The notes beneath the pieces were generated by a model that was given only the letters and a program-made list of their open reading frames with translations, did not search any database and was not told where the DNA came from. The position numbers and the translations under genes were made by a program. This document shows, piece by piece, positions 21,182 to 42,146 of a stretch of DNA of 64,000 nucleotides (within the stretch, counting starts at the first letter, position 1; each line of letters opens with the position of its first letter). This DNA comes from Streptomyces sp. NBC_01335 (GTDB lineage: Bacteria > Actinomycetota > Actinomycetes > Streptomycetales > Streptomycetaceae), in contig NZ_CP108370.1 of assembly GCF_035953295.1 (NCBI RefSeq), forward strand, positions 6,991,001-7,055,000. The letters are read 5' to 3'.

Positions 21182-21495
21182 CCGCGCAGCGTAAGGGTGC
21201 CGCGGAGGCGGCATCGAGCGGTTTTCCGAAGGCGAGCCGAATCGGTCCACCACCGGCGGCAACCTTTTGGTTCCGTGCGGCGACTACGAGTCCGAACCCC
21301 CTGTCTCCCACGGGGGACAGAGGAACGGAAGCGCCATGGCACCGTACGGACGCAGGCCACCGGACCAGTGGGCGGCGCTGGACGGGCGGGTGGCGGTCCC
21401 GGCTCCGAATCGTCCCCGGCCGTCCGGAGTCACGGGACTCCCCGGGCTGTCCGGGGGCGTGGGGCTTCCCGCTCCCTGACTCCTTCCCAGGAGGT

Positions 21496-21511
21496 GTCGA
21501 AGCGCTTCGAC
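21496..21511. promoter_or_regulatory. LacI-type operator O1 (16-bp palindrome)
   Basis: GTCGAAGCGCTTCGAC is a perfect 16-bp palindrome centred 177 bases before the LacI start. The inner 14 bases are identical to the two sites in the GH3/binding-protein promoter region. Confidence 0.8.
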
Positions 21512-21597
21512 GCCTCTCTGGACAGTTCACAGGAGTCCGTCTAGCCTGGATTGAATCTTCGCATGTCAGAGGGGGATTGAGAGGGAAGTCGCTCGTT

Positions 21598-21609
21598 TCG
21601 AAGCGCTTC
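21598..21609. promoter_or_regulatory. LacI-type operator O2 (partial palindrome)
   Basis: TCGAAGCGCTTC, followed by A instead of G, keeps the 10-bp palindromic core GAAGCGCTTC. It is 101 bases centre-to-centre from O1 and 72 bases before the LacI start. Confidence 0.75.
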
Positions 21610-21680
21610 ACCAACCGTTCCGTCCTCTCCGTTGTTCTGCCGCACCCCCACTTGTCACTGTCACCCGTAAGGGAGAGCGC

Positions 21681-22691
21681 ATGGTCACCCTGGCCGAGGT
21701 CGCCCAGCACGCCGGAGTCTCCGCGAGCACGGTGAGCTACGTCCTCAGCGGGAAGCGGTCCATCTCCGCTCCCACCCGGGAGCGCGTGGAGCTGAGCATC
21801 CAGCAACTCGGCTACCACCCCAACGCCGGGGCCCGCGCGCTCGCCAGCAGTCGCTCCAACATCATCGCCCTGATGGTGCCGTTGCGTACGGACATGTACG
21901 TGCCGGTGATGATGGAGATCGCCATCGCGGTCGCCACCACCGCCCGCACGCACGGCTACGACGTGCTGCTCCTCACCGGCGAGGAGGGTCCCGCGGCGGT
22001 CCGGCGGATCGCCGGGAGCTCGCTCGCCGACGCGCTGATCCTCATGGACGTGGAACTGCACGACGAACGCCTGCCCGTGCTCCGGGACACCCAACGGGCC
22101 GCCGTCCTCATCGGGTTGCCCGCCGACGTGGCCGGACTGACCTGTGTGGACCTCGACTTCGAGGCGACCGGGGCGCTGTGCCTGGAGCACCTCGCCGGAC
22201 TCGGGCACCGCGAGGTCGCGGTGATCGGTGAGGCGCCCGCCGTCTACGAACGGCACACCGGCTTCGCCGAACGCACCATCGACGGCATCCGGGCCAAGGC
22301 GCGGGAGACCGGCGTGACCGTGCTGCACCGGCCCTGCGAGGGCGGCTACGCGGCGATGGCGCAGACCCTGTCGCGGATCTTCGACGAACGGCCGAGCACC
22401 ACCGGCTTCATCGTCCAGAACGAATCCGCGGTGGAGCCGCTGCTCAACCTCCTCCAGCAGCAGGGCCGTGCCGTGCCCGAGGACGTCTCGGTCGTCGCGA
22501 TCTGCCCCGAACAGGTGGCGGCCCAGGCCTCCGTGCGGCTCACCTCCGTCGCCATCCCCGCCCAGGAGATGGGGCGCCGGGCGGTCGAGCTGGTGGTGGC
22601 CAAGCTCACCGGCTGCGGCAAGGACGAAGTCGAGCTGATCGCGCCGGAGTTGACGATACGGGCGAGTACGGGCCCGGCGCCCGCGGTCTGA
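21681..22691 (+). CDS. LacI-family transcriptional regulator of the glycan locus
   Basis: A 336-residue LacI/GalR protein. The N-terminal headpiece (1-60) has VTLAEVAQHAGVSASTVSYVLSG and the hinge helix NAGARALASSRSN. The rest is a periplasmic-binding-protein fold (about 60-330) that would bind a sugar or oligosaccharide. It starts at ATG 21681 after GGGAGA. Two copies of its presumed operator precede it, suggesting autoregulation. Identical palindromes in the divergent GH3/binding-protein promoter suggest that it represses the whole xyloglucan-type locus. By family precedent (CebR) the inducer would be an oligosaccharide. I infer this from site sharing; no binding is shown. Confidence 0.93.
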   Translation: MVTLAEVAQHAGVSASTVSYVLSGKRSISAPTRERVELSIQQLGYHPNAGARALASSRSNIIALMVPLRTDMYVPVMMEIAIAVATTARTHGYDVLLLTGEEGPAAVRRIAGSSLADALILMDVELHDERLPVLRDTQRAAVLIGLPADVAGLTCVDLDFEATGALCLEHLAGLGHREVAVIGEAPAVYERHTGFAERTIDGIRAKARETGVTVLHRPCEGGYAAMAQTLSRIFDERPSTTGFIVQNESAVEPLLNLLQQQGRAVPEDVSVVAICPEQVAAQASVRLTSVAIPAQEMGRRAVELVVAKLTGCGKDEVELIAPELTIRASTGPAPAV

Positions 22692-22708
22692 GCCGCGCCG
22701 GTGGACCC

Positions 22709-22757
22709 GTGAGCTCCCGGCCGGTCGCGCGCACGCCGCGACCGGCCGGGAGCTCAC
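22709..22757. terminator. Strong bidirectional terminator
   Basis: Perfect 21-bp arms (22709-22729 and 22737-22757) and a seven-base loop lie between the convergent LacI and GH95 genes, 18 and 24 bases from their stops. Confidence 0.88.
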
Positions 22758-22780
22758 CGGCGGAGGGGCCGCCGGGCCGT

Positions 22781-25078
22781 TCACCCGTCCGCCGCCTCCC
22801 GGCGCGGCACCGTCAGGACCCGGTCGGCCCCCGCGGTGAGCGTGATCCAGGACGCCGTGCCCGGCTCCGCCGCACCCTCCGGGGCGCCCGGCGGCGGCCC
22901 CGTACGCAGCTCGATCCGGGCGTCACGGGCGGGCCGGAGCACCGCGGTGACCTCCTCGGGGGTCCAGCCGAGGTCGAGCGTCGCGCCGAACCTCGTACGG
23001 ACGCCCCGGAGCGTGCCCCTGGGGTACGCGGCCGGGAGCGCGGGCAGCAGGACCAGGCGGTCCGGTGCCGACTGGACCAGCATCTCCAGCACCACCGCCG
23101 GCAGCGCGTGGGCGGCGTCCGCGTTGTAGACGTCGCGGCCCGGGTAGTGCGCGCTCATCAGCGAGTCGTGGAAGAAGTCCCCGGCCAGCACCGACGCCAG
23201 AGCCGAGGAGACCCGCGATCCGTCCCGCAGCCGCGCCGCGACCAGCGCGTGGTGCAGATGGCCGTGGGCCGAGTCGTTCTCCGAACCCCGCAGCTCCAGC
23301 GCGCGGTGAGCGGCGCGGGCCGGCCCGGGGGTGTCGTACGGGTTGATCTCGTCGAGCGGCCACACCGGGTAGAGGTGGCTGAGGTGGCGGTGGTCGTACG
23401 TCTCGCGCAGACCGGGCCACGCCCACTCCGCGAGCGCGCCGTCCTCGTTGACCAGATAGCGCGGCAGCCGGCCGGCGAGGGCGAGCCAACGGTCCGCGTC
23501 CGGATGGGCGGGGGCGAGCTCCGCCGCCGTCGTCAGGGCGTGACGGGCCGCCGCGATGTCCATCGTGGCATTGACGGTGCCCCAACTCGCGTTCGCCGGG
23601 CGGTTCTCCGGGGAGTACGACGGGACGACGGCCACACTCCCGTCCGGGGCCCGGCGGGTGAGGAAGTCCGTGTAGAAATCGGCCACTTCGATACAGGAGG
23701 AGACCAGCTCCCGCGGGGTCCGGCCGGTGGTCGCCGCGCGTTCGACCAGCGGGTGCAGCAGCCAGTCGGCACCGGCCGTCCACAGGTGCAGCGGATAGGC
23801 GCGCTGGAAGTGACGGGTGTGGCCGGACTCGCCGTCCGAGTGGGAGGGCGCGACGATGCCCCGGGCGCCGAACAGGGCACGGGCGTTCTCCCGCCAGTGC
23901 TCCGACTGACCCTCGATCAGGCGGGCGTGGGCGTCGAGCACCTCGGGCAGGTCCGCCGCGGCGGCCGAGGCCAGCTGGAGGTTGAGGTTGGCGTTGGTGG
24001 TGAACGCCCCCGACCAGGCGGTGTTCCAGTCGCCCGTCCACAGCCCGGTCAGGCGGGGCGGCAACAGCCCCGAAGCGGAGAGCAGGTGGTAGCGGCCCGC
24101 CGCGAACAGCCGCTCCAGCAGCGCGGGGCTGCCCGGATGACGCAGCAGCTCGCTTCCCGGGAGGTCCGGACGGGCCGGGTCCTCGTCGTGCAGGGAGAGC
24201 GCGCACCGCAGGAACGCGGCCTGATGAAGCGGTAGATGACGGGCCATCAGGGTCGGGTAGTCGGCATCCGGCAAGGCCGACCACTCGGCTTCGAGGTCCG
24301 GGTCGCCGGGGCCCCGGCGCACCCGGGTGAGCAGCAGCAGGCTCCGGGCGCCCGTGACGCGCACGCCGTCGCCGTCCACCGAGACCGTGCCGCCCTCCGC
24401 GCGCAGCGTTGCCACGCCGACGCAGGACAGGTCGCTGTCCGGGTAGCGCAGCCGCACCGCGAGGCGGGCGCCGTGCGGCGTCAGCGCCGTGGAGCGGCCG
24501 ATCGCGAGGCCCGCCGGGGCGCCGGGGAGGGCCGGGTCGAGCGCGACCTCGATGTCCGGCGCGGGTCCGGTGATGTGCTGCACGATCACGTCGTCGGCCC
24601 GCGACACGAACACCTGACTGCGCCAGGGGCCGGAGGAGGCGGTGGCCTCACCCGAGGTGAAGTCCAGCTCGCGGCGGTAGGGCGCCGGGTCGGACTCGGC
24701 CCCGTGTCTGGCTGAAGTGGAGTACGGGAGAGCGCTGTTGTCCCCGTCGGCTGTGGCCTGTGCCCCGCTCCGTCGCACCCGGGTCTGGAACGCCGGGTGG
24801 AACGGCTGGACCCACACCAGCGGGCGGCCCGCACCGAAGTGTTCGGCCGCCTCGGTGTCCCCGGCGAGCAACGCGTCCTGGAGCCGGCCGAGTTCGCCCG
24901 AGAGCTCCGGTGGGCGCAGGTGCTCGCTGCCGTTGGGCCGGACGAGCGTGTGGTGGTTGACGATCACCCGGTCGTCGGCCGGGTCGCCGTAGACCATCGC
25001 CCCGTGGTGCCCGTTCCCGCTGAGGAAGGCGTCCTCCCAGCGCGCCGCGGGCCGGGGCTCCCAGGTGCCCCGGCTCAT
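22781..25078 (-). CDS. Glycoside hydrolase family 95 (alpha-L-fucosidase type), divergent
   Basis: A 765-residue cytoplasmic enzyme (no signal peptide). The N-terminal beta domain begins WEDAFLSGNGHHGAMVYGD, and the (alpha/alpha)6 barrel has TGLWTGDWNTAWSGAFTTN followed by NANLNLQ, the GH95 catalytic-asparagine region, plus HRHLSHLYPVWP. Known GH95 enzymes remove alpha-1,2-fucose (or alpha-L-galactose) from glycans by inversion. The usual DGNFGG stretch near the C-terminus is replaced by YNADAAHALPAV, so this is a divergent member and the exact sugar is uncertain. It overlaps the GH42 gene by 4 bases (ATGA), the last gene of the six-gene operon. Confidence 0.85.
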   Translation of the reverse strand: MSRGTWEPRPAARWEDAFLSGNGHHGAMVYGDPADDRVIVNHHTLVRPNGSEHLRPPELSGELGRLQDALLAGDTEAAEHFGAGRPLVWVQPFHPAFQTRVRRSGAQATADGDNSALPYSTSARHGAESDPAPYRRELDFTSGEATASSGPWRSQVFVSRADDVIVQHITGPAPDIEVALDPALPGAPAGLAIGRSTALTPHGARLAVRLRYPDSDLSCVGVATLRAEGGTVSVDGDGVRVTGARSLLLLTRVRRGPGDPDLEAEWSALPDADYPTLMARHLPLHQAAFLRCALSLHDEDPARPDLPGSELLRHPGSPALLERLFAAGRYHLLSASGLLPPRLTGLWTGDWNTAWSGAFTTNANLNLQLASAAAADLPEVLDAHARLIEGQSEHWRENARALFGARGIVAPSHSDGESGHTRHFQRAYPLHLWTAGADWLLHPLVERAATTGRTPRELVSSCIEVADFYTDFLTRRAPDGSVAVVPSYSPENRPANASWGTVNATMDIAAARHALTTAAELAPAHPDADRWLALAGRLPRYLVNEDGALAEWAWPGLRETYDHRHLSHLYPVWPLDEINPYDTPGPARAAHRALELRGSENDSAHGHLHHALVAARLRDGSRVSSALASVLAGDFFHDSLMSAHYPGRDVYNADAAHALPAVVLEMLVQSAPDRLVLLPALPAAYPRGTLRGVRTRFGATLDLGWTPEEVTAVLRPARDARIELRTGPPPGAPEGAAEPGTASWITLTAGADRVLTVPRREAADG

Positions 25079-27072
25079 GCCGCGCCGACCGGCTTCAGGG
25101 CCGCCACGCCGTAACGCCCCAGCTCCACGGCACCGTCCGTCTTCGCGCCGCTGAGCACGTCGACGTACGTGCCCGGCAGCGGCACGGTCACCGTGCCCTG
25201 CCCGTGGTGGAGCAGGAAGAGCAGCTCGCCCCGGCGCACCGCCTCCACGCCCTCGGGCAGTTGGGCCACCACCGGGCGGACGCCCGCCTCGCCGGCCACC
25301 CGGCCGAGCAGTTCGCGCAGTGCGCCGGGCTCCGGCAGCGTCGAGAGGTACCAGGCGCCGCCCTTGCGGAGCACGGCGGGCAGGCCGTCCAGTTCGCCGC
25401 CCCGGTAGGCGGCGACGGTCTCGCCGGTGCCGTCCGTCTCCAGCTCCTCCGACCACAGCAGCCCCTGGAAGCCGTCGCAGGCGACGCTCGCGTCCGGCTC
25501 GACGGGCCACCACTCGTGGAGCGTGCGGATCGAGAAGAGCTCGCGCAGCCGCGCGTCCATGCCGCCCGGCCGGATGCGGTCGTCCACGTCGGCGACGCCG
25601 GTGAAGAACCCGCTGACCAGGGTGCCGCCGCCCGCCACGTACGCGACCAGGTTGTCGACGGCGGCGTCGGTCAGGAGGTAGAGCTGCGGCACCACGACCA
25701 TCCGGTAGCCGCTCAAGTCCGCCTCGGGGCGGGCGAAATCGGTCGCCGTGCCGTTCTCCCAGAGCGCCCGGTGCCAGGCTTGTACGATCTCCGCGTAGTC
25801 CAGGTGCGAGGAGGGGCGGCCCTCCTGCGCGCTGCCCCACCAGGCGTCCCAGTCGTGCAGTACCGCCACCTCGGCCGGGGCGTGTGCGCCGCTCACCTCC
25901 GGTGCGAGGGTGGCCAGTTCGGAGCCGATGCGGGTGATCTCCCGGAAGGCGCGGCCCTCGGGTCCGGCGTGCGACACCATCCCGGAGTGGAACTTCTCCG
26001 AGCCCTGCCGGGACTGGCGCCACTGGAAGTAGCAGACGGCGTCCGCACCCCGGGCCACCGACTGGAGGGACCAGAGCCGGTTGAGCCCCCGCGGCTTCGG
26101 GTGGTTCACCGGGCGCCAGTTGACCGCGCTCGCGGCCTGCTCCATCAGCATCCACGGCCCCCGGGCCTGCGAGCGCGTCATGTCGGCGAGCATCGCGTTG
26201 TACTGCCCCGCTCCCGGGTCCGCCGGGTCCGGGTAGACGTCCACCGAGACGACGTCCTCCTGCCCGGCCCACGCCCACGCGTCCTGACCCGACCAGAGCG
26301 GCATGAAGTTGGACGTCACCGGAAGGGCGGGGGAGTGGCGGCGCACGATGTCCCGCTCGGCGGAGTAGCACTCCAGCAGGGCGTCGGAGGTGAACCGCTT
26401 GAAGTCGAGCACCTGTGTGGGGTTGCGCGTGTACTGGGCCTTGCGGGGCGGCAGGATCTCCGCCCAGGTGTCGTAGCGCTGGCTCCAGAAGGCCGTCCCC
26501 CAGGCCTCGTTGACCGCGTCGAGCGTGCCGTACCGGCCGGCGAGCCAGCGGCGGAAGTGCGCCGCCGTCTCGTCGCACCAGCAGTGCGTGCAGTACTCGT
26601 TGTTGATGTGCCACATGGTCAGCGCCGGATGGCCGGCGTACCGGGCCGCCAGGTCCTCGGTGAGGGCTGCGGCGTACCGGCGGTACACCGGTGAACTCGC
26701 GCAGAAGTGCTGGCGCGAGCCGTACCACACGACCGATCCGTCCTCCGCGCGCGGCAGCGTCTCCGGGTGCAGCGCACCCATCCACGGCGGCGGGGAGGAG
26801 GTCGGGGTGGCGAGGACCACCCCGATGCCGTGCTCCTCCATGAGCCCCATCAGCCGGTCGAGCCAGCCGAACTCCCGTGCCCCGGGGCGCGGTTCGATCT
26901 TCGCCCAGGAGAAGACGCCCAGCGTCACCGAGTTGACCCCGGCCTCCTTCATCAGGGCCACGTCCTCGGCCCACACCTCCTCGGGCCACTGCTCGGGGTT
27001 GTAGTCGCCGCCGAAGAGAAGGCGGCCACGGGTGGCGTCACGCAGGGACGGCATGGTGTTCTCGATCCTCAT
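25075..27072 (-). CDS. Glycoside hydrolase family 42 beta-galactosidase
   Basis: A 665-residue enzyme. The TIM barrel starts GGDYNPEQWPEEVW. The acid/base Glu159 is in HINNEY and the nucleophile Glu311 in MLMEQ, both as expected for GH42. Cys124, Cys161, Cys164 and Cys166 form the typical structural zinc site. The trimerisation and small beta domains follow (about 400-660). No signal peptide, so it works on imported oligosaccharides, probably removing beta-galactosyl units. ATG 27072 overlaps the upstream GH74 stop by 4 bases; an alternative ATG at 27054 would lose that overlap. Confidence 0.93.
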   Translation of the reverse strand: MRIENTMPSLRDATRGRLLFGGDYNPEQWPEEVWAEDVALMKEAGVNSVTLGVFSWAKIEPRPGAREFGWLDRLMGLMEEHGIGVVLATPTSSPPPWMGALHPETLPRAEDGSVVWYGSRQHFCASSPVYRRYAAALTEDLAARYAGHPALTMWHINNEYCTHCWCDETAAHFRRWLAGRYGTLDAVNEAWGTAFWSQRYDTWAEILPPRKAQYTRNPTQVLDFKRFTSDALLECYSAERDIVRRHSPALPVTSNFMPLWSGQDAWAWAGQEDVVSVDVYPDPADPGAGQYNAMLADMTRSQARGPWMLMEQAASAVNWRPVNHPKPRGLNRLWSLQSVARGADAVCYFQWRQSRQGSEKFHSGMVSHAGPEGRAFREITRIGSELATLAPEVSGAHAPAEVAVLHDWDAWWGSAQEGRPSSHLDYAEIVQAWHRALWENGTATDFARPEADLSGYRMVVVPQLYLLTDAAVDNLVAYVAGGGTLVSGFFTGVADVDDRIRPGGMDARLRELFSIRTLHEWWPVEPDASVACDGFQGLLWSEELETDGTGETVAAYRGGELDGLPAVLRKGGAWYLSTLPEPGALRELLGRVAGEAGVRPVVAQLPEGVEAVRRGELLFLLHHGQGTVTVPLPGTYVDVLSGAKTDGAVELGRYGVAALKPVGAA

Positions 27073-29360
27073 TCCGGGTCGGCGTACTGGATGCCCCGGC
27101 CGTTGGTGCCCAGATACACCCGGCCGTGGACACGGGGGTCGCCGGCGATCACCTCGCCGGTCCACCCCCACTGGTGCTGGTCGTCGTTGATGCGAATCCA
27201 GGTGACGCCCGCGTCGTCCGAGCGCAGCACGGCCACGCCGTCGTGCGTCGCGGACGCCCGTCCCGTCTGGAAGACCGCGGGGTACCCCGGGCGTCCGGGC
27301 CGTCCCTTCGGGGCGGGGGCGGCCTTGCCGAAGCCCAGCGCGTGCGACTCCTGGACCCCGGCCACGGCCGTGAACGTGCCTCCGCCGTCCGTCGAGCGGT
27401 GCAGCCCGCCGGTCTTCGCCGACAGCCAGAGGTCGCCCGTCCTGCCCGGCGCCGCCGCCATCTTGAACTGCGCGTCACCGGAAGGGAGTCCGGTGGCGCC
27501 GGCGGTGAAGGTCGCGCCCGCGTCCGTGGAGAGGTGGACGGTGCCGGTGTCCGTGTCGTAGGCGTAGAAGCGGGCGGAGTCCACCGGGTCGGCGACGGGC
27601 GTCGCGCCCTTCGGGAACGTCACCACCTCGCTCCAGCTCGCACCGCCGTCCGTGGACCGGTGCGCCGGGTACTTCGTGCCGTCCCAGTGGATGAACGTCC
27701 AGAGCAGCGTCGTCCCGTCCGCGCTCACCGCGATCGGGCCCGGCGCGGACGCCGCGATCTGCGGCTGCGCCGCAAACGGCTGCCAACTGGCCCCTCCGTC
27801 AAGGGAGTACGCCCCGGCGGCGTCCGACCCCGAGGGCCAGCCGGTCCGTACGACGTACGAGGGGACACGTGCCGCGAGGGCCAGGCCGGTCGCGGTGCCG
27901 AACACCGGGTTCGACGCCATGCCGCGCGAGGGGGAGGAGGTGAGAGACTCGTGGTACATCACCCCGATGTCCCCCAGCCCGCTAAGGAGTTGGGCTCCCC
28001 GGGTGCTGGGCGGCGCGACCAGGTGGCGTACCGACGACTCCTCCAGGCCCCGGACCTCCGGCGCCCAGTGCACCAGGTCCCGGGTGCCGAAGACCGTGGC
28101 GCCGGTCCCGTAGAGGAGGTGGCGGGAGTCGAAGGGGTCGACCGCGACGGCCTGGATCCACCAGCCGAACTTCGCCTCCCCACCCCAGCGCAGGTACGGC
28201 GTCTCCGAGACGTCCAGCACCGCCGTGTCCTTGAGGGAGGTCCAGGTGCGCCCGTGGTCGGTGGAGCGGAAGAGCGTGTCGACCGGCCCCCAGCGGTTGT
28301 TGGTGGAGACGACGACCGTCCCGGGGCGCCGGGCGTCCACCGCGATCCCGCCGTAGCCGAACGCGTCCGCCCCGCCCGGCACCACGGGCGTCACGTCCGA
28401 CCAGGCGCCGGTCACCGTGTCGAGGCGGCGCACCGCGCCGTCGCTCTGGTTGTTGGGCCCCGGGCCGTTCGCCCAACTCACGTACAGGGCACGGGAGACG
28501 GCGTCGTACGCGGCCCGGACCGGCACCCGGGTAGACCCGTCGGCCACCGGCGCGCCGGGGACCGGCTCCCACCCGCCGGACGGGGTCGAGCGGTACAGGG
28601 AGGTGGTGCCGTCGCCCCAGCCCGCGTACACCGTCCGCCCCACCGCCACCAGCAGGGTGACCCCCTGGCCGGAGGCGGACGGCACGGCGGGGAAGGAGGG
28701 GTCCGGCGCCCAGGTGGCGCCCTGGTCGGTGGAGCGCAGCAGCCCGTCGTGGCGGGTGCCGAGCCAGAGGGTCCGACTGTCGCGCGGGTCGACCAGCAGG
28801 CGCTCACCGGTACCGCGGCCGTCCTCGTTGGCACCGAGCCGCACCGTCAGGTCCGCACGGGTCCAGGTCGCGCCCCGGTCCTCCGAGCGCAGCACCGCCC
28901 CGGGACCTGCCCAGGACTGGGCGTACGTACCGAGCGCGAGGTACACCCGGTCCGGGTGGGCCGGGTCCACGGCGATCGCCTCGACGCCGAGCAGGTTCCA
29001 GTCGTCCCAGCCGGTGAAGTCGGTGAGCGCCGTCCAGCGGGCCTTCGCGGCGTCCCACCGGTAGGCTCCGCCGATGTCCGTCCGGGCGTAGGCCAGGCCG
29101 CGCACCGACGGGTGGAACATCAGCCCGGTGACGAACCCGGTGCCGCCGATGGCGGCGGTGCGCCAGCGGTACGCCTGGGCCCCCGGCCGGCCGGAGGGGC
29201 GTTCCGCCGCCGAGGCCGTACCCGCGGCGGGCAGTACGCAGGCGGCCGCGGCGACGGCGGCCGCCCCGGCCAGCACCGAGCGGCGCCCGGGCGGCGACGG
29301 CACGGGGTTGGTCGTGGGTGCGGGTGCGGCAGGACCGGGATCGGAACGGAACGCGGGCAC
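27069..29360 (-). CDS. Secreted glycoside hydrolase family 74 (endo-xyloglucanase type)
   Basis: A 763-residue exported enzyme. The signal peptide has a twin-arginine start (GRRSVLAGAAAV) and ends around GTASAAE. The mature part is two seven-bladed propellers with repeated sialidase-like 'STDGGASW' Asp-box turns. The N-terminal signature VTGLMFHPSVRGLAYARTDIGG followed by AYRWD is diagnostic of GH74 and includes the catalytic Asp. GH74 enzymes cut the beta-1,4-glucan backbone of xyloglucan. No cellulose-binding module is attached. It starts at GTG 29360 after GGAAGGA; the region before it is not protein-like. It is the only secreted hydrolase in the locus. Confidence 0.92.
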   Translation of the reverse strand: MPAFRSDPGPAAPAPTTNPVPSPPGRRSVLAGAAAVAAAACVLPAAGTASAAERPSGRPGAQAYRWRTAAIGGTGFVTGLMFHPSVRGLAYARTDIGGAYRWDAAKARWTALTDFTGWDDWNLLGVEAIAVDPAHPDRVYLALGTYAQSWAGPGAVLRSEDRGATWTRADLTVRLGANEDGRGTGERLLVDPRDSRTLWLGTRHDGLLRSTDQGATWAPDPSFPAVPSASGQGVTLLVAVGRTVYAGWGDGTTSLYRSTPSGGWEPVPGAPVADGSTRVPVRAAYDAVSRALYVSWANGPGPNNQSDGAVRRLDTVTGAWSDVTPVVPGGADAFGYGGIAVDARRPGTVVVSTNNRWGPVDTLFRSTDHGRTWTSLKDTAVLDVSETPYLRWGGEAKFGWWIQAVAVDPFDSRHLLYGTGATVFGTRDLVHWAPEVRGLEESSVRHLVAPPSTRGAQLLSGLGDIGVMYHESLTSSPSRGMASNPVFGTATGLALAARVPSYVVRTGWPSGSDAAGAYSLDGGASWQPFAAQPQIAASAPGPIAVSADGTTLLWTFIHWDGTKYPAHRSTDGGASWSEVVTFPKGATPVADPVDSARFYAYDTDTGTVHLSTDAGATFTAGATGLPSGDAQFKMAAAPGRTGDLWLSAKTGGLHRSTDGGGTFTAVAGVQESHALGFGKAAPAPKGRPGRPGYPAVFQTGRASATHDGVAVLRSDDAGVTWIRINDDQHQWGWTGEVIAGDPRVHGRVYLGTNGRGIQYADPE

Positions 29361-29482
29361 GGCGGAGTCCTTCCGGAGCGGGAGCGGGACGGGGGACGGC
29401 GAAGAGGGAGAACGGGATGCTCCGTGCCGCGCGCGGGAGGACCCGGCGCGCGGCACGTACGGCAGCGGAGAACGCGGTGGGC

Positions 29483-31623: not shown

Positions 31624-31727
31624 CGTGAGCTCCCCATGTCGTGCTGCTCCGCCCCGGCCGCCGGGCGTCACTGCGCCCGGCGGCCACTCTCCGTTTGTGC
31701 GTGGGTCCTGCCGTCTGCCGCGTACGG

Positions 31728-33437
31728 TCAGTTGCCGGAGCCGTTCTTGTCGAGGATGTCCTGGTACCAGGAGCGGAGCTCGTCGCCGCCGCTCTTCTTC
31801 CAGGTCGACACCGCCGACTCCAGGTCGCTGACCTTCTTGCGCCCGCGCCGGATGTCCTTCTGCAGGTCGTCGAAGGGCGTGTACAGGGAGGCGTACCGCT
31901 GGGGCTCGACGATCTGCATGCCGAAGAAGAGAGGCTTCTTGATGTTCGGCGCCTGCCGGGCCATCCACCCCGCGTAGTCCTGGACCAGCTTCGGCTCGTC
32001 GGGGAAGGCGATGGTGTGCGGCGGGGAGGCGAGGAAGAGGAAGGTGGAGGGCTGGGCCTCCTGGATGCCCTGGTCGGTGAAGGTCGGCACGCCGCCCTTC
32101 ACGTCGTAGTGGGTGCCCTGGACGCCGTAGTTGGTGAGCATGAACTCCTCGGTGCCGTACGGGGCGGCGGCGAAGTCGGCGATGGCGAGCATCTCCTCGA
32201 TCTTCGCCTTGGGGAGCTTCTTGCTGAGGAAGGTGAAGATCCCGGCCGGGTCGTCCTGCCAGAGGACCGGCTTGCCGCCGTCGGCCGAGAAGAAGTCCAG
32301 CGCCTGCATGTCGAACTTCGGGTTGGCGGTCTTCTGTTCGGTCACCATGCCCTTCCAGCCGCCGGTGCCGTCGTTGTACATGACGATGTGGCCGCTGGTG
32401 AAGCGGATCTTGGAGTCCGCGTCCTTGTTCGCCTCGGCGTCCGGGTGGACGTAGCCGAGGTCGTGGAGCTTGCGCGCGAAGGCCAGGGCCTCGCGGTACT
32501 CCTTCGTCTCGAGCTTGTGGACGAGCTTGCCGTCCTGGAGCTGCCAGTAGTGCGGGGCGTCCGGCAGCACGCCGTAGATCTTCTGGATGCAGGTCCACAG
32601 GTCGTCGAAGGCCCAGACCTTGCTCTTCGGCGCGGTGTACTCCTTGCCGAAGGCGAGCAGGTCGTCGGCGCTGGCCGGGACCGCGCCGGAGCCGATGATG
32701 TCCTTGCGGTAGAAGATCGCGTTGCCGATGACCGGCGAGGGCATGGGCAGGCCGCGCAGCTTGCCGCCGAAGACCGAGTACTGCCAGGCCCCGGTGGGGA
32801 TGTTGGCGAGGTTCGGGTACTTCTTCACCGCGTCGCCGGCCAGGTAGGGGCTGAGGTCGGCGAACTTCGCGGTGATGGCGTTGCGGATCTGGCCCTGCAT
32901 GTTCCAGCCGGGGATCGTCATCACGTCCGGGATGTCGTCGCCGGCGAGGACGGCACCGATCTTGTCCTGGTACGTGTTGCCGTCCTGCGGGTCGAAGTTC
33001 AGCGTCGCGCCGACCGCCTTGTTCACCGCCGCGTAGTACGGGTTGTTCTTCTTCGGGACGGTGCCCCACAGCGGGGTCATCACCCGGAAGGAAGAGCCCT
33101 TGCCGGGAACGGACTTGACCGACTTCGCCAGCGGGTCGGGCAGCTTGGTGAACCCGGGGCTCGACCCGTTGACGCTGGCCACGTCGGGCTGCACCAGGTC
33201 GGAGGGGACGTAACTCGGCACGACCTTGCTGAGCGCCTTGCCGGTCGTCGTGCCCTCCCGGGTCCCCGAGTCGGATCCGGAGCCGCCGCACGCGGCCAGC
33301 AGCGGTACGCCGCCCGCCACGGCCACCGCTGCGAAGGCGCTCGAAGCGAGGAAGCTCCGGCGGTTCGGAGTGATGGCACTGAGGCCCGTCGCGTCGTTCT
33401 CGGACCGGTTCGTGGCGGGGGAGGAATTCGGCGTCAT
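31728..33437 (-). CDS. Extracellular solute-binding lipoprotein, Tat type
   Basis: A 569-residue binding lipoprotein, first gene of the leftward operon. The Tat motif NRRSFLA (about 25-31) and lipobox LLAAC (Cys50) show export of a folded protein and anchoring to the membrane surface. The mature part belongs to the large family-1 binding proteins (LipO/YtcQ group) that work with LplB/LplC permeases; YYAAVNKAVGATLNF and SWYQDIL are typical. The size suits a long oligosaccharide. Start: ATG 33437 after GAAGGG. A 104-base gap separates it from the permease, where partial termination could raise its level. Confidence 0.92.
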   Translation of the reverse strand: MTPNSSPATNRSENDATGLSAITPNRRSFLASSAFAAVAVAGGVPLLAACGGSGSDSGTREGTTTGKALSKVVPSYVPSDLVQPDVASVNGSSPGFTKLPDPLAKSVKSVPGKGSSFRVMTPLWGTVPKKNNPYYAAVNKAVGATLNFDPQDGNTYQDKIGAVLAGDDIPDVMTIPGWNMQGQIRNAITAKFADLSPYLAGDAVKKYPNLANIPTGAWQYSVFGGKLRGLPMPSPVIGNAIFYRKDIIGSGAVPASADDLLAFGKEYTAPKSKVWAFDDLWTCIQKIYGVLPDAPHYWQLQDGKLVHKLETKEYREALAFARKLHDLGYVHPDAEANKDADSKIRFTSGHIVMYNDGTGGWKGMVTEQKTANPKFDMQALDFFSADGGKPVLWQDDPAGIFTFLSKKLPKAKIEEMLAIADFAAAPYGTEEFMLTNYGVQGTHYDVKGGVPTFTDQGIQEAQPSTFLFLASPPHTIAFPDEPKLVQDYAGWMARQAPNIKKPLFFGMQIVEPQRYASLYTPFDDLQKDIRRGRKKVSDLESAVSTWKKSGGDELRSWYQDILDKNGSGN

Positions 33438-33666
33438 TGCGTCAACCCTTCATGGCGCACCAGGACGACACCCGGCGGGCGACCGCCGTTCGGCTCCTGA
33501 GTCTGAGGTGGGCGTAACTGGACGGAACCGCTCGGATCGAGCGGTACACGACCGGGCGGTGACGGCTTGAAGCCACCGCCGGCGGCGAGACCGGGAACGG
33601 ACCGCGGGGGACCAGGCCACCCTCGGTACTTTCCGGAGACACCGGCTGAGCACCCTCGAAGTGCTG

Positions 33667-33680
33667 TCGAAGCGCTTCGA
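33667..33680. promoter_or_regulatory. LacI-type operator O3
   Basis: TCGAAGCGCTTCGA, perfect 14-bp palindrome, 230 bases upstream of the binding-protein start. It is identical to the inner part of O1 before the LacI gene. Confidence 0.82.
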
Positions 33681-33819
33681 TGTTGCAGCGAGGTTAAGTG
33701 AAGGGGACCGGTCGCACAAGGGTTCGCCCACACATTCATGGGAGCTGTTTCCGTAACGTTTCCGGCGCTCCCGTGCGGCCCCCGTGAGCCGGGCAGGCCG
33801 AGTCAACCCCCGTGCACCC

Positions 33820-33862
33820 TTGACACTTTGCCGGTCGGCCACCGAGCATCGAAGCGCTTCGA
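33820..33862 (+). promoter_or_regulatory. GH3 promoter with overlapping LacI-type operator O4
   Basis: A consensus TTGACA (33820-33825) is followed 18 bases later by GAGCAT (33844-33849), a poor but possible -10. The operator TCGAAGCGCTTCGA (33849-33862) starts on that -10 and covers the expected transcription start, 82 bases before the GH3 gene. This is the ideal position for repression. Confidence 0.72.
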
Positions 33863-33943
33863 AAGATCACTCGCTGATGTTCCGAAGGACCGTGGCGGCC
33901 CATGGCTCCGCCAGACCTCCCACCTTTCCAAGGGGACCCGCAC

Positions 33944-36865
33944 GTGACGGACCTTCCGCTTCCCTTCCGCGACCCGCAGTTGCCCTTCGAGGCGCGCGTC
34001 GACGACCTGCTCCAGCGGCTCACGACCGACGAGCGGATCGCGATGCTGCACCAGTTCGCGCCGCCGGTGGAGCGGCTGGGACTGGCCTCCTTCCGCACCG
34101 GTCAGGAGGCGCTGCACGGTGTGGCCTGGATGGGCGGGGCGACCGTGTTCCCCCAGGCCGTCGGCCTCGGCGCCACCTGGAACGACGACCTGGTGCGCCG
34201 CGTCGGCGAAGCCGTGGGCGACGAGGTACGGGCCAAGCGCCGGAGCGACGACCGGGTCGGCCTCAACGTCTGGGCCCCGACAGTGAATCTCCTGCGCCAC
34301 CCCCTGTGGGGGCGCGGCGAGGAGGGGTACTCCGAGGACCCCGCGCTCACCTCCGCCATCGCCGTCGCGTACACCCGCGGCCTGCGCGGCGAGCACCCCC
34401 GCTACTGGCGCACCGCCCCGGTCCTCAAGCACTGGCTCGCCCACAACAACGAGACCGACCGGGACACCGCCTCCTCCTCCGTGCGCCCCCGCGTCCTGCA
34501 CGAGTACGACCTGCGCGCCTTCCGCGACGCGGTCCGCGCCGGAGCGGTCGCCGGGGTCATGCCGGCCTACAACCTCGTCAACGGCCGCCCCAACCACGTC
34601 TCCCCGCTGCTCGACCGGGAGCTGCGGCAGTGGACCGACCAGCCGCTCGTCGTCTGCTCCGACGCCGGCGCGCCCTCCAACCTGGTCGACTCCGAGCACT
34701 ACTTCGACACCCACGAGGAGGCCACCGCCGCCTCCCTCAAGGCGGGCGTGGACAGCTTCACCGACCACGGCACGGACTCCTCCGTGATGACCGGCCGCAT
34801 CCGCGACGCGCTCGCCAAGGGGCTGCTCGACCCCGAGGACATCGACCGGGCGGTGCGCAGGCTGCTCCATCTGCGCTTCGCGCTCGGCGAGTTCGACCCT
34901 GAGCTCGACCCCTACGCGGACACCGACGCCTTCGACACCCCCGCCCACCGCGAACTCGCCCTGGAAACGGCCGAACAGGCCGCGGTCCTGCTGAAGAACG
35001 ACGGTCTGCTGCCGCTCGCGCCGCGCGCGGGGCGGAAGATCGCGGTCGTCGGCCTGCTCGCCGACGCCTGCAAACTCGACTGGTACAGCGGCACCCTGCT
35101 GCACCGCTCCACCCCGCTCGACGGGATGCGCGCCCGCTACGGCGCCGACGACGTGCTGTACGCCGAAGGCGTCGACCGGGCCCTGCTCACCTGCGAGGCC
35201 GGTCAACTCCTCGTGCCCGCAGCACAGTCGGCGACCGGCGGGGCGCGCGGCGAGGAAGGCGCGCTCGACCCGGCGCTCCTCACCGGCCGCACCGACCTCC
35301 CGCCGCTCGTCGCCGCCCCCGAGGGCACCGCCCTCGCCGTGGTCGACTGGGGCGACGGCGTCCTCACCTTCCGCACCGACGAGGGGCTCCACCTCTCCGT
35401 CGCCGAGGACGGCTTCGTACGCGCCTCCGCCGAGGAGCCGGGCGGCTGGATCGTCCAGGAGACGTTCCGCCTGGAAGCGGTCGAGGGACACGACGGAGGA
35501 CACCGCCTTCTGCACATCGGTACGGGTGGGTACGTGTCTGTCGCCGCCGACGGAGCAAAGGTTGCCGAGAACGGCGAAAAGATTTCGGCCGACCGCGCGA
35601 CCGTCTTCGGCGTCGAGATCGTCGAGCGCGGCGCGGACGAGGTCGCCCGGGTCGCGGCCGAGGCCGACACCGTCGTCGTCGTCGCGGGCAACGACCCGCA
35701 CATCAACGGACGCGAGACCGAGGACCGCACCACCCTCGCCCTCCCCGCCCAGCAGGAGAAGCTCTGGCGCGCCGCGCACGCCGCCAACCCGCGCACCGTG
35801 CTCGTCCTCACCTCGGCCTACCCGTACGCCGTACCGGAGGCCGACGCCACCCTCCCCGCCCTGCTGTGGACCGCGCACGGCGGCCAGGCCGCCGGCACCG
35901 CGCTCGCCCGGGTCCTCGCCGGAGACGTCTCCCCGGCCGGACGCCTCCCGCAGACCTGGTACGCCGGTGACGACGACCTGCCCGACCTGTTCGACTACGA
36001 CGTCATCGGGTCCCGCCAGACGTACCTCTACTTCGACGGCACCCCGCTCTACCCGTTCGGCCACGGCCTCTCCTACGCCTCCTTCGCGTACGAGGACCTC
36101 ACCGTCGCCCGCGAGGACGACCTGCTCCGGGTCGGCCTGACCGTCACCCACACCGGCGCGGCAGCCTCCGACGGGGCCGCCTCCGACGCGGCCGCCCCCG
36201 GTGCGGCGGCCTCCGACGAGGTCGCCCAGCTCTACGTACGCCGCACCGCCCCGGACGCCGCCCGTCTGCCGCTGCGCAAACTGGTCGGCCACCGCAGGCT
36301 GAGCCTCGCCCCCGGCGGCTCCGAGCGACTCGAATTCCTTGTGCCGGTCGCCGAGTTGGGTCACTGGGACGTGGCGCACGGCCGCTGGACCGTGGAGCCG
36401 GGCTCCTACGAGCTGCTGGCCGGGGCGTCCAGCGCGGACATCCGGCTCGCCGCCGCCGTGGAGGTGGACGGAGAGCCCTCCGGGCCCCGCCCCGTCCTCG
36501 CCGCCGGCATCGAGGCCGCCGACTACGACGAGCAGTACGGCACCGGGATCGTGGACCGCGCGAAGACGGACGGCGACGCGGTCACCGCCACCGGCACGGA
36601 GGGCGGCCGACTGGTCTTCGGGGCCTGCGACTTCGGGCCGGGGGTGCGCAGCGTCACCGTCCACGCGGCCGGTGAGGGCACGGTCGAGATCGAGACGGAC
36701 ACCGCCGCCGCGGCCGTCGACGTCCCCGCCACCGGCGGGCCGTACGACTACCGGTCGGTGACCGCGGCGTTCGGGGCGGACGGGGTGGCGGACCTCCGGG
36801 TCACCCTGCGCGGCGCGCTGCGCCTCGCCCGCCTCACCTTCGCCCCCTCGGGAGCGTCCGAGTGA
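33944..36865 (+). CDS. Glycoside hydrolase family 3 beta-glucosidase with inserted beta-trefoil and C-terminal CBM-like domain
   Basis: A 973-residue cytoplasmic enzyme. The N-terminal barrel has the nucleophile Asp240 in VVCSDAGAP; KHWLAHNNE is the conserved KH-loop. The C-terminal alpha/beta domain is split by an insert (about 410-560) with FRTDEGLHLSV and GTGGYVSVAADG repeats of a fascin-like beta-trefoil, then resumes with GNDPHINGRETEDR, where the acid/base Glu resides. An FnIII-like domain and a C-terminal CBM6-like sandwich (about 840-973) follow. It removes non-reducing beta-glucosyl units. GTG 33944 is chosen because AAGGGGA precedes it; ATG 33902 has none. Confidence 0.9.
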   Translation: MTDLPLPFRDPQLPFEARVDDLLQRLTTDERIAMLHQFAPPVERLGLASFRTGQEALHGVAWMGGATVFPQAVGLGATWNDDLVRRVGEAVGDEVRAKRRSDDRVGLNVWAPTVNLLRHPLWGRGEEGYSEDPALTSAIAVAYTRGLRGEHPRYWRTAPVLKHWLAHNNETDRDTASSSVRPRVLHEYDLRAFRDAVRAGAVAGVMPAYNLVNGRPNHVSPLLDRELRQWTDQPLVVCSDAGAPSNLVDSEHYFDTHEEATAASLKAGVDSFTDHGTDSSVMTGRIRDALAKGLLDPEDIDRAVRRLLHLRFALGEFDPELDPYADTDAFDTPAHRELALETAEQAAVLLKNDGLLPLAPRAGRKIAVVGLLADACKLDWYSGTLLHRSTPLDGMRARYGADDVLYAEGVDRALLTCEAGQLLVPAAQSATGGARGEEGALDPALLTGRTDLPPLVAAPEGTALAVVDWGDGVLTFRTDEGLHLSVAEDGFVRASAEEPGGWIVQETFRLEAVEGHDGGHRLLHIGTGGYVSVAADGAKVAENGEKISADRATVFGVEIVERGADEVARVAAEADTVVVVAGNDPHINGRETEDRTTLALPAQQEKLWRAAHAANPRTVLVLTSAYPYAVPEADATLPALLWTAHGGQAAGTALARVLAGDVSPAGRLPQTWYAGDDDLPDLFDYDVIGSRQTYLYFDGTPLYPFGHGLSYASFAYEDLTVAREDDLLRVGLTVTHTGAAASDGAASDAAAPGAAASDEVAQLYVRRTAPDAARLPLRKLVGHRRLSLAPGGSERLEFLVPVAELGHWDVAHGRWTVEPGSYELLAGASSADIRLAAAVEVDGEPSGPRPVLAAGIEAADYDEQYGTGIVDRAKTDGDAVTATGTEGGRLVFGACDFGPGVRSVTVHAAGEGTVEIETDTAAAAVDVPATGGPYDYRSVTAAFGADGVADLRVTLRGALRLARLTFAPSGASE

Positions 36866-36929
36866 CCCGGCACCGCACCGCAGCAGCCGCCCAGCCTCCG
36901 CTCACCACCGTCCCCGGCAAGGAGTCCTC

Positions 36930-39230
36930 ATGAAGTTCACCGACGGATTCTGGCTCATGCGGGAGGGAGTCAGCGCCTCCTACGCCACCGAGATCCGCGA
37001 TCTGCGCGTGGACGCCGACCGGATCACCGCCCATGCGGCGGTCATGCGGGTCACCGGGCGCGGCGACACCCTCAACACCCCGCTGATCACGGTCGAATGC
37101 TTCACGCCCGCCGAGGGGATCATCGGCGTCCGCGCCACCCACCACGCCGGGAAGGTCAACCACGGCCCGGACTTCGAGCTGACGGCCGATGCCGAGCCGC
37201 ACGCATCGGTGCGCACCGTGCGGGAGGGTTCGGTCGCCGAACTCACCAGCGGACCACTGACCTTGAGGCTGGACAAGGACGGTCCCTGGGGTCTCACCTT
37301 CCTCGACGCCGACGGCCGACGGCTCACCGGAGCCGACCGCAAGGGCACCGCCTTCGCCACCACCCCCGACGGCGCCCACCACATGGTCGCCCAACTCGCT
37401 CTGGCTGTCGGGGAGAACGTCTACGGCCTCGGCGAGCGGTTCACCCCCTTCGTGAAGAACGGCCAAGTCGTCGACGTCTGGCAGGCGGACGGCGGCACCA
37501 GCAGTGAACAGGCCTACAAGAACATCCCGTTCTACCTCTCCTCGCGCGGCTACGGCGTCTTCGTCAACCACCCCGGCAAGGTGGGCTTCGAGATCGGCTC
37601 CGAGTCCGTGGGCCAGGTGCAGTTCAGCGTCGAGGACCAGACGCTGGAGTACTACGTCGTCGCCGGCCCGACGCCCAAGGACGTACTCACCCGCTACACC
37701 GCCCTCACCGGCCGCCCCGCGCTCCCCCCGGCCTGGTCCTTCGGGCTGTGGCTCACCACCTCCTTCTGCACCTCCTACGACGAGGAGACGGTGACCTCCT
37801 TCGTGGAGGGCATGGCCGAACGCGACATCCCGCTCTCCGTCTTCCACTTCGACTGCTTCTGGATGCGCGAGTACCAGTGGTCGGACTTCCTCTGGGACCC
37901 CGACGTCTTCCCCGACCCGGAGGGGATGCTCGCCCGCCTCAAGGAGCGCGGGCTGCGCATCAGCATGTGGATCAACCCCTACATCGCCCAGAAATCGGCC
38001 CTGTTCGCCGAAGGTGCCGAGAAGGGCTACCTCGTCCGCCGGCCCAACGGCGACGTCTGGCAGTGGGACCTCTGGCAACCGGGCATGGCCCTGGTCGACT
38101 TCACCAACCCCGAGGCGGCCGCCTGGTTCCAGAGCAAGCTGAAGGTCCTCCTCGACCAGGGAGTCGACTGCTTCAAGACGGACTTCGGCGAGCGCATCCC
38201 CACCGAGGTCGTCTGGCACGACGGCTCCGACCCCGAGCGGATGCACAACTACTACGCGCAGATCTACAACCGCGCGGTCTTCGAACTCCTGGAGAAGGAA
38301 CGCGGAAGCGGCGAGGCCGTCCTCTTCGCCCGCTCGGCGACCGCCGGCGGCCAGCAGTTCCCCGTCCACTGGGGCGGCGACTGCTTCGCCTCCTTCAACG
38401 CGATGGCCGAATCCCTGCGCGGCGGACTCTCGCTGAGCCTCTCCGGCTTCGGCTTCTGGAGCCACGACATCGGCGGCTTCGAAGGCACCCCCGACCCGGC
38501 CGTCTTCAAGCGCTGGGTCGCCTTCGGCCTCCTCTCCTCGCACAGCCGCCTCCACGGCAACGTCTCCTACCGCGTGCCGTGGGAGTTCGGCGAGGAAGCG
38601 GTCGAGGTGACACGGCAGTTCACCCTCCTCAAGCACCACCTGATGCCGTACCTCTACGGCGCCGCCGCCGAGGCCCACCGCACCGGCGTCCCGGTGATGC
38701 GCCCGATGCTGCTGGAGTTCCCGGACGACCCGGCGACCCGCACCCTGGACCGGCAGTACATGCTCGGCCCCGATCTGCTCGTCGCCCCGGTCTTCTCCGA
38801 GGAGGGCGAGGTGGAGTACTACGTCCCCGAGGGCACCTGGACCCACCTGCTCACCGGCGAGACCGTCACCGGACCGGTCTGGCGCCAGGAGGTCCACGGG
38901 TTCGACAGCCTCCCGCTGTACGTACGGCCCGGCGCGGTGCTCCCCTGGAGCAGTGACGACCAGCGCCCGGACGGCGACTGGCTCGCCGACCTCACCCTGC
39001 GGGCCTTCGGCCCCGCGCCGGACTCCGGGACGAGCACGGCCACGACCACGACCGAGGTCACCGTCCCCGGCCTGACCGGCGAAGCGGCCGCGACCTTCCA
39101 CGTCGTCCGCGACGGGGACGGCGTACGGGCCACGGCGGAGGGCAGCGGCCGGCCCTTCCGCGTCACGGTCGAGGCCACGGGCGCGACGGCGGAGGGAACG
39201 GGCACGGTGGAGGTGCCGCCCGTCGGCTGA
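36930..39230 (+). CDS. Glycoside hydrolase family 31 alpha-xylosidase (YicI-like)
   Basis: A 766-residue cytoplasmic enzyme. The nucleophile Asp418 is in KTDFGERIPTEV, the YicI-type signature (GERIP rather than the GMNE of alpha-glucosidases), and the acid/base Asp484 is in WGGDCFASF. FHFDCFWMREYQWSDFLWD is also YicI-like. The preference should be alpha-1,6-xylose on glucose, as in xyloglucan oligosaccharides. The ATG follows AAGGAG by six bases and lies 64 bases after the GH3 stop, so both are one transcript. The last 80 residues are Thr/Ala-rich and form the distal beta domain. Confidence 0.93.
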   Translation: MKFTDGFWLMREGVSASYATEIRDLRVDADRITAHAAVMRVTGRGDTLNTPLITVECFTPAEGIIGVRATHHAGKVNHGPDFELTADAEPHASVRTVREGSVAELTSGPLTLRLDKDGPWGLTFLDADGRRLTGADRKGTAFATTPDGAHHMVAQLALAVGENVYGLGERFTPFVKNGQVVDVWQADGGTSSEQAYKNIPFYLSSRGYGVFVNHPGKVGFEIGSESVGQVQFSVEDQTLEYYVVAGPTPKDVLTRYTALTGRPALPPAWSFGLWLTTSFCTSYDEETVTSFVEGMAERDIPLSVFHFDCFWMREYQWSDFLWDPDVFPDPEGMLARLKERGLRISMWINPYIAQKSALFAEGAEKGYLVRRPNGDVWQWDLWQPGMALVDFTNPEAAAWFQSKLKVLLDQGVDCFKTDFGERIPTEVVWHDGSDPERMHNYYAQIYNRAVFELLEKERGSGEAVLFARSATAGGQQFPVHWGGDCFASFNAMAESLRGGLSLSLSGFGFWSHDIGGFEGTPDPAVFKRWVAFGLLSSHSRLHGNVSYRVPWEFGEEAVEVTRQFTLLKHHLMPYLYGAAAEAHRTGVPVMRPMLLEFPDDPATRTLDRQYMLGPDLLVAPVFSEEGEVEYYVPEGTWTHLLTGETVTGPVWRQEVHGFDSLPLYVRPGAVLPWSSDDQRPDGDWLADLTLRAFGPAPDSGTSTATTTTEVTVPGLTGEAAATFHVVRDGDGVRATAEGSGRPFRVTVEATGATAEGTGTVEVPPVG

Positions 39231-41982: not shown

Positions 41983-42092
41983 GTGCGCCGCCTCCTGTCT
42001 TCCGACCGGCAAACGAAAGGCTCGGCCCTGTCGGGGGCAGCTTCCGGCAGGCCCGTACGCCCCGCCACTCGGCGGCGCACGGTCCGGACACG

Positions 42093-42129
42093 ACCGCGCC
42101 GCCGTCCCGGAGGGGGACGGCGGCGCGGT
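42093..42129 (-). terminator. Hairpin terminator after the membrane-protein/VWA operon
   Basis: Perfect 16-bp arms (42093-42108 and 42114-42129) with a five-base loop lie 17 bases downstream of the operon's last stop. Confidence 0.85.
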
Positions 42130-42146
42130 GGTTCCCGGCGTTCGGG

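Follow-up and report, generated by a model that had tools for sequence, protein, structure and literature searches.

The xyloglucan utilization locus (XyGUL) of Bacteroides ovatus groups backbone and side-chain enzymes in one locus, with SusC/SusD capture and periplasmic trimming. Here we describe a nine-gene locus in a 64,000-nucleotide stretch of the Streptomyces sp. NBC_01335 genome (contig NZ_CP108370.1, positions 6,991,001 to 7,055,000; hereafter the window). The locus encodes a LacI-family regulator, a solute-binding protein (SBP), two ATP-binding cassette (ABC) permeases and five glycoside hydrolases (GH). It is very probably a LacI-controlled xyloglucan utilization locus whose products would cut the polymer outside the cell, import the fragments whole and dismantle them inside.

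Import of intact XXXG-type oligosaccharides is experimentally established in Ruminiclostridium cellulolyticum, where an SBP with two permeases takes them up and the cytosolic enzymes Gal42A, Xyl31A and Glu3A trim them (PMC4780118). The same paper contrasts intact import with periplasmic degradation in Gram-negative bacteria and reports comparable clusters in other genomes, and the legend of its Fig. 12 mentions alpha-fucosidase genes in similar clusters. Like the Streptomyces locus, R. cellulolyticum Ccel_2451-2458 combines an SBP, two permeases, cytosolic GH42, GH31 and GH3 enzymes and divergent gene groups, with no nearby ATPase gene (PMC4780118). In contrast, its xyloglucanases are cellulosomal and encoded elsewhere, and GH95 is not among the locus genes as described in that paper. 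Control also differs, as the R. cellulolyticum locus is under the two-component system XygS/XygR (PMC8576529) rather than, as predicted here, a LacI-family protein. Relative to this system, the Streptomyces locus adds a GH74 gene within the locus, a LacI-type switch and a divergent GH95 gene.

Anaerocellum bescii Athe_2052-2054 is similar in having a 551-amino acid SBP with AlgQ/FusA-like neighbours, a co-located GH31 gene and an ATPase encoded elsewhere (PMC12710961, a preprint). The product of its GH74 is imported intact, as we propose here, but in this thermophile GH74 belongs to a large modular enzyme encoded elsewhere, and the GH42 gene also lies elsewhere. The Xanthomonas citri XyGUL has GH74, GH31 and GH95 in one locus, and a few Xanthomonas species have lost GH74 (PMC8245568). 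It differs in having TonB-dependent transporters, GH35 in place of GH42 and the acetylesterase CE20, and its GH31 and GH95 enzymes are only distantly related to those described here.

The original prediction, which was made from the DNA sequence, proposed that xyloglucan is cut outside and trimmed inside and named Bacteroidetes and Xanthomonas as precedents. Gene content and export motifs agree with that scheme, but the ABC import systems of R. cellulolyticum and A. bescii are closer precedents. Pfam detected no TonB-dependent transporter/SusD pair among the nine gene products, so the locus is not a polysaccharide utilization locus of the Bacteroidetes type; an SBP gene and two permease genes adjoin the GH42, GH31 and GH3 genes, as in Gram-positive xyloglucan-oligosaccharide loci. 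The scheme is known from clostridia and is not new, its mechanism having been established earlier in other Gram-positive bacteria. What is new is the conservation of the locus within the genus, its operator, the pattern of GH74 presence and the divergent GH95. The texts of PMC4780118 and PMC12710961 do not mention Streptomyces, and no description of the locus in Streptomyces was found among the open-access matches listed, judged by titles and abstract openings and with subscription papers mostly outside the coverage.

Results

Gene content, export signals and the predicted importer

All nine of the contiguous genes that had been predicted were found where expected, at positions 21681-39230 of the window, by Pfam and, for GH74, by structure-sequence match (Table 1). 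The minus-strand order is SBP, permease 1, permease 2, GH74, GH42 and GH95, with 4-base overlaps between the two permease genes and between GH42 and GH95. The GH3 and GH31 genes run the opposite way from an intergenic region that they share with the SBP gene, and the lacI gene occupies the far end.

Table 1. Genes and palindromic sites of the locus, and three other genes of the window (window coordinates; aa, amino acids; TM, transmembrane; ORF, open reading frame; Tat, twin-arginine translocation).
Feature	Position	Strand	Evidence or remark
LacI-family regulator, 336 aa	21681-22691	+	PF00356 60.7 bits, PF13377 95.4 bits
Divergent GH95-family enzyme, 765 aa, no signal peptide seen	22781-25078	-	PF22124, fold
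GH42 beta-galactosidase, 659 aa, predicted cytosolic	25075-27054	-	PF02449 493 bits (longer ORF); structure 9ta3 547 bits
GH74 xyloglucanase, 763 aa from GTG, Tat-type signal peptide	27069-29360	-	468 bits to 5jwz and 6p2m
ABC permease 2, 326 aa, ~6 TM segments	29483-30463	-	PF00528 29.5 bits, cut-off 26.4
ABC permease 1, 387 aa, ~6 TM segments	30460-31623	-	PF00528 56.9 bits (longer ORF)
Tat lipoprotein SBP, 569 aa, AlgQ/FusA-like	31728-33437	-	Motifs, model fold
GH3 enzyme, 987 aa, probable beta-glucosidase, no signal peptide seen	33902-36865	+	PF00933, PF01915, PF14310, PF03422
GH31 YicI-type alpha-xylosidase, 766 aa, predicted cytosolic	36930-39230	+	NCBIfam PRK10658 1222 bits
Operator 1, TCGAAGCGCTTCGA	21497-21510		Exact palindrome, 170 bases before LacI start
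Degenerate operator, 2 mismatches, upstream of LacI	21598-21611		Mismatch scan
Operator 2, divergent SBP/GH3 intergenic region	33667-33680		Exact copy of palindrome
Operator 3, 182 bp from operator 2, 39 bases before GH3 start	33849-33862		Exact copy of palindrome
ORF with ricin-type beta-trefoil lectin domains	8550-10325		
Asp-Al_Ex permease with TrkA_C domain	40402-42651		Pfam
GH4-family glycosidase gene	61339-62685		

The GH31 enzyme contains the YicI-type GERIP motif that had been noted earlier, and its match to the NCBIfam alpha-xylosidase model PRK10658 passes the curated cut-off of 606 bits. In an alignment it keeps the residues that match YicI F277 and C307, positions that we take to have a role in xylose specificity. 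GH42 and GH74 match solved members of their families across most of their length; the latter has BNR/sortilin Pfam matches, and query residues 76-773 align to the xyloglucanase structure 5jwz. Pfam showed that the GH3 enzyme, a probable beta-glucosidase, is complete, with an insertion of ~160 amino acids in the C-terminal domain and a CBM6-like tail, both of which sit in an apparently cytosolic protein. NCBIfam gave no name to GH42, GH95 or the SBP.

Export was assessed by hydropathy and motifs only. GH74, for which the GTG start codon was a choice, carries a twin-arginine signal, while no export segment was found in GH95, GH42, GH3 or GH31, and the SBP has a twin-arginine motif and a lipobox. 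Thus both the single exported hydrolase and the Tat lipoprotein receptor of the original prediction were borne out.

No match to the SBP was found in a sequence search of the PDB, and the fold class of the protein therefore rests on an AlphaFold model. Fold neighbours of the model include AlgQ2, AlgQ1, FusA and 5gx8, which are the neighbours named for the A. bescii xyloglucan SBP, a protein with a dissociation constant of 14 nM for XXXG (PMC12710961). The structure of that SBP, 9PMY, was not among the best 50 structure matches listed for our model. An AlgQ/FusA-like fold together with a size of ~60 kDa identifies the protein as a Cluster G solute-binding protein, and the modelled fold class agrees with binding of XXXG-type oligosaccharides. 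The locus has no ATPase gene. One MalK-type ATPase encoded in the genome scored above the cut-off and a second just under it; a shared ATPase of the MalK type (MsiK), with its gene outside the locus, would be the probable energy source of the permeases.

A conserved palindrome is the candidate LacI operator

The palindrome TCGAAGCGCTTCGA occurs as three exact copies in the 8.36-Mb genome, all within this locus, versus ~0.02 expected from base composition. When up to two mismatches were allowed, the window contained 4 matches versus 0.30 expected. The start that the original prediction assigned to the locus, 21496, lies one base ahead of the first palindrome. Perfect 14-bp palindromes were also counted in 59 stretches with an SBP match (four duplicate contigs included, and a run of N in one locus set aside). 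TCGAAGCGCTTCGA was the commonest, with 128 copies in 57 of the 59 stretches, and the next one had 10; the two stretches that lacked it were L056 and L082.

In 53 SBP/GH3 intergenic regions, the first count gave two copies in 44, one in 8 and none in 1. Among the nine low counts, however, L036, L075 and L086 really hold two copies each, as the called starts of open reading frames had intruded, and L057-L062 have one intergenic operator each. An exact operator was also present within ~300 bp upstream of 20 of 31 LacI orthologs. No match was found when 33430-33910 and 21250-22900 were scanned for consensus promoters and terminators. With a conserved palindrome at the promoters that it would control, LacI is the likely repressor of the locus, and the palindrome is its putative binding site.

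The distance between the two intergenic copies (n=44) was 169-172 bp in 34 cases, 182-183 bp in 6, as in the window, and took other values in 4. These two clusters of spacing differ by roughly one turn of DNA, possibly a sign of looping. Five stretches (L098, L099, L104, L111 and L112) had an exact operator inside or near a DapA-like open reading frame, named by eye, which may be either a coding coincidence or an intragenic site. In L111 and L112 the operator lies ~200 bp before an IlvD/Edd-type dehydratase gene (Pfam), and in L112 there is also a LacI ortholog (78%) that has an operator to itself.

The operator bears on an alternative in which cello-oligosaccharides or mixed beta-glucans are the main substrates of the locus, with GH74 working as a general endoglucanase and the side-chain enzymes present only incidentally. 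GH74 has been counted among endoglucanases (PMC4898821), and the A. bescii xyloglucan SBP also binds plain beta-glucan (PMC12710961). However, TCGAAGCGCTTCGA is unlike the CebR box TGGGAGCGCTCCCA; no exact copy of that box occurs in the window, and its single match with two mismatches is as chance predicts. The locus also contains a curated alpha-xylosidase, GH42 and a GH95-type gene. We consider this alternative most improbable. Xyloglucan, the substrate named in the original prediction, is well supported by the gene content, the curated alpha-xylosidase assignment, the SBP fold class and the patterns of co-occurrence in 246 genomes of the same genus.

Versions of the locus are found in roughly half of the Streptomyces sampled

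With the SBP as query, 24 named Streptomyces loci were fetched, of which 22 had close SBPs (L034-L055). Permease 2, GH3 and YicI-type GH31 were present beside the SBP in all 22, and the grouping of the nine genes is therefore not due to chance. Permease 1 was not detected in L054, where GH31 has the other orientation, and GH31 of L036 is in pieces. The two loci with distant SBPs lacked GH3 and GH31 (L056) or had a distant GH31 (L062). Among the carriers are Streptomyces sp. SirexAA-E and S. griseus BIG105 (as that strain is labelled). The original prediction knew of no equally compact Streptomyces cluster and had suggested a comparison of synteny; the comparison showed that such a compact locus is shared by related named Streptomyces and is not unique to this strain.

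Co-occurrence was scored by E-value thresholds in the 246 same-genus genomes; the protein searches considered the best 3 to 5 candidates in each genome and may have missed some genes. Open reading frames with <70% coverage, <150 bits or internal stops were dropped before counting. An SBP match at 1e-60 was found in 132 genomes. We defined a strong SBP as a best E-value of <=1e-150 (122 genomes), and the 10 genomes with weak matches (~1e-64 to 1e-75) were counted as being without it (n=124). At least two exact operators were present in 122/122 strong-SBP genomes versus 8/124 others. Similarly, GH74 was found anywhere in the genome in 115/122 versus 13/124, and YicI-type GH31 in 108/122 versus 29/124. 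Roughly half of the Streptomyces genomes sampled thus have a version of the locus. A search of 396 genomes of the phylum with an SBP profile gave 10 matches at 1e-80, 8 of them from the same genus.

More distant versions also exist. Most stretches fetched for the ~50% SBP clade were without a YicI-type GH31, although L074 and L075 have one. Four Actinacidiphila loci (L057, L059, L060 and L061) have another gene order with LacI downstream of the permeases, one operator, a distant GH31 (~30%) and a GH95 of ~29-30% identity, that of L059 being of the ordinary type. Other genomes have further operators, and we inspected 20 stretches around these, hand-picked among the operator places listed. In eight (L094, L097, L101, L102, L103, L106, L110 and L113) a cluster that includes a 60-63% GH31 lies downstream of the operator; permeases were present in 7 of these clusters, a LacI paralog in 7 and an SBP-like open reading frame in 6 (two Pfam-tested). 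The other 12 included the main locus itself (L100), a second, more distant SBP locus (L108) and several sites within coding sequence. In the genome of NBC_01335, a second YicI-type GH31 gene (81% identical; C1:6512224-6514443) adjoins a divergent SBP-permease-permease-GH1 group, and no CebR box was found near it.

GH74 is a variable component

Between permease 2 and GH42, GH74 was intact in 25 of 55 loci, a remnant in 6 and absent in 24. With four duplicate contigs removed, the 51 distinct loci comprised 23 with intact GH74, 5 with a remnant and 23 without it. SirexAA-E is among those with no GH74 between the permease and GH42, and five of the GH74-absent loci (the four Actinacidiphila loci and L062) are laid out differently. 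A GH74 of at least 61% identity lay within 8 kb of the SBP in 76 genomes. S. avermitilis reportedly has two GH74 xyloglucanases, SaGH74A and SaGH74B, the latter said to be an endo-enzyme free of carbohydrate-binding modules. SaGH74B may be an ortholog of the locus-type GH74.

The frequent absence of GH74 would be expected if the system mostly scavenged oligosaccharides freed by other organisms, with GH74 being optional. Among the 43 strong-SBP genomes without a GH74 of at least 61% identity, 7 have no GH74 at the threshold used, but 36 keep another one. In addition, GH74 of the window is intact, and where GH74 is absent this may be ancestral in some clades. Scavenging as the main function is thus unlikely.

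The GH95-type enzyme of the locus is divergent

The GH95-type enzyme has the GH95 family profile and fold. Its best match in both sequence and structure is the X. citri xyloglucan fucosidase, which is fucose-specific despite an unusual residue (PMC8245568). The catalytic residues, whose roles (N-x-N, Glu and Asp) were taken partly from that paper, are kept in the alignment: the second Asn and the Glu in 36/36, the Asp in 35/36 and the first Asn in 33/36. From sequence, the protein is a probable side-chain alpha-L-fucosidase or related exo-glycosidase. A PHROGs search with it found nothing. A Thr/His position once proposed to tell GH95 L-galactosidases from fucosidases was dropped, as PMC8245568 shows that it is not decisive.

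Several comparisons set the locus-type proteins apart. In 61 genomes they scored 182-240 bits against PF22124 versus 375-588 bits for 37 other matches, and they are 23-30% identical to 25 of these 37. In a tree with all 25 comparison loci and L059, the locus group splits off at 1.84 substitutions per site with support of 1.0. Within 8 kb of an SBP lay 18/22 locus-type proteins versus 0/37 of the others. Stretches common among the other Streptomyces GH95 proteins (n=25; NxNxxMNYW in 18, FxIDGNxG in 19, RGDxGTGW-like in 16 and HxNTD in 6) are replaced by NANLNLQ, YNADAAH, RGSENDSAHGH and SHTDGESGH at the corresponding positions of the locus orthologs.

These differences raise the question of whether the enzyme acts on fucose. 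Xyloglucan could be galactosylated and carry another cap (e.g. L-galactose or an arabinose), or fucose could be recognized through a different pocket, in which case the enzyme would not be an alpha-1,2-L-fucosidase. The replaced stretches, the deep split of the group and its proximity to the SBP favour this explanation. In contrast, the retained catalytic residues and the match to the fucose-specific X. citri enzyme argue for a fucosidase. Moreover, the common stretches vary among other Streptomyces GH95 as well, their lining of the sugar pocket is our inference, and the model (pLDDT 66.0), with active-site loops below 50, is too poor for a reading of the pocket. We regard a non-fucosidase, or a fucosidase with a different pocket, as a tentative alternative. 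A more specific proposal, that the locus proteins are a distinct subfamily specialized with the Streptomyces xyloglucan importer, keeping the catalytic residues and recognizing a terminal sugar or linkage other than that of known alpha-1,2-L-fucosidases, appears rather doubtful; we lowered our estimate of it slightly because the common stretches are not constant elsewhere in Streptomyces. As to the fucosylated substrate of the original prediction, the family assignment holds, whereas fucose specificity is only suggested for a protein so distant from other GH95 in bit score, identity and tree position.

Discussion

In our model, exported GH74 would cut the xyloglucan backbone outside the cell, and the Tat lipoprotein SBP would capture whole branched oligosaccharides and pass them on to the permease pair. 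Once in the cytosol, they would lose an outer side-chain cap, probably L-fucose, to the GH95-type enzyme and galactose to GH42. GH31 and GH3 would then alternate from the non-reducing end, releasing xylose and glucose, respectively. Without substrate, LacI bound to the TCGAAGCGCTTCGA sites would silence its own gene as well as the SBP and GH3-GH31 operons, and an imported oligosaccharide or breakdown product would release it.

Several observations weigh against this model. The co-occurrence statistics ignore shared ancestry, and the per-genome protein searches may have missed genes. At the thresholds used, 14/122 strong-SBP genomes were without GH31 and 7/122 without GH74. GH95 is divergent, and GH3 fell below the cut-off of all seven NCBIfam models that it met; the best of these was a beta-xylosidase model (439 of 1250 bits), and beta-xylosidases also head its list of PDB matches. 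Lastly, 11/31 LacI orthologs had no exact operator within ~300 bp upstream, and in some other genomes an exact operator also lies inside coding sequence. We nevertheless consider the model very likely to be correct.

That Streptomyces can grow on xyloglucan is on record, but an explanation has been lacking. In one study, four of six isolates used xyloglucan as their only carbon source, and its authors stated that predicted enzymes could not always account for growth (PMC11475409). In addition, Streptomyces variants in the xyloglucanase gene Xgh74A and in an alpha-xylosidase gene have been linked to tomato quantitative trait loci (PMC9203511). The locus together with its operator provides a testable genetic predictor of growth on xyloglucan for the genus Streptomyces. 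The GH74 pattern would allow polymer-cutting strains to be compared with strains that may only take up fragments. If the proposal of a distinct GH95 subfamily were true, streptomycetes would use an activity not yet described to open a class of xyloglucan side chains.

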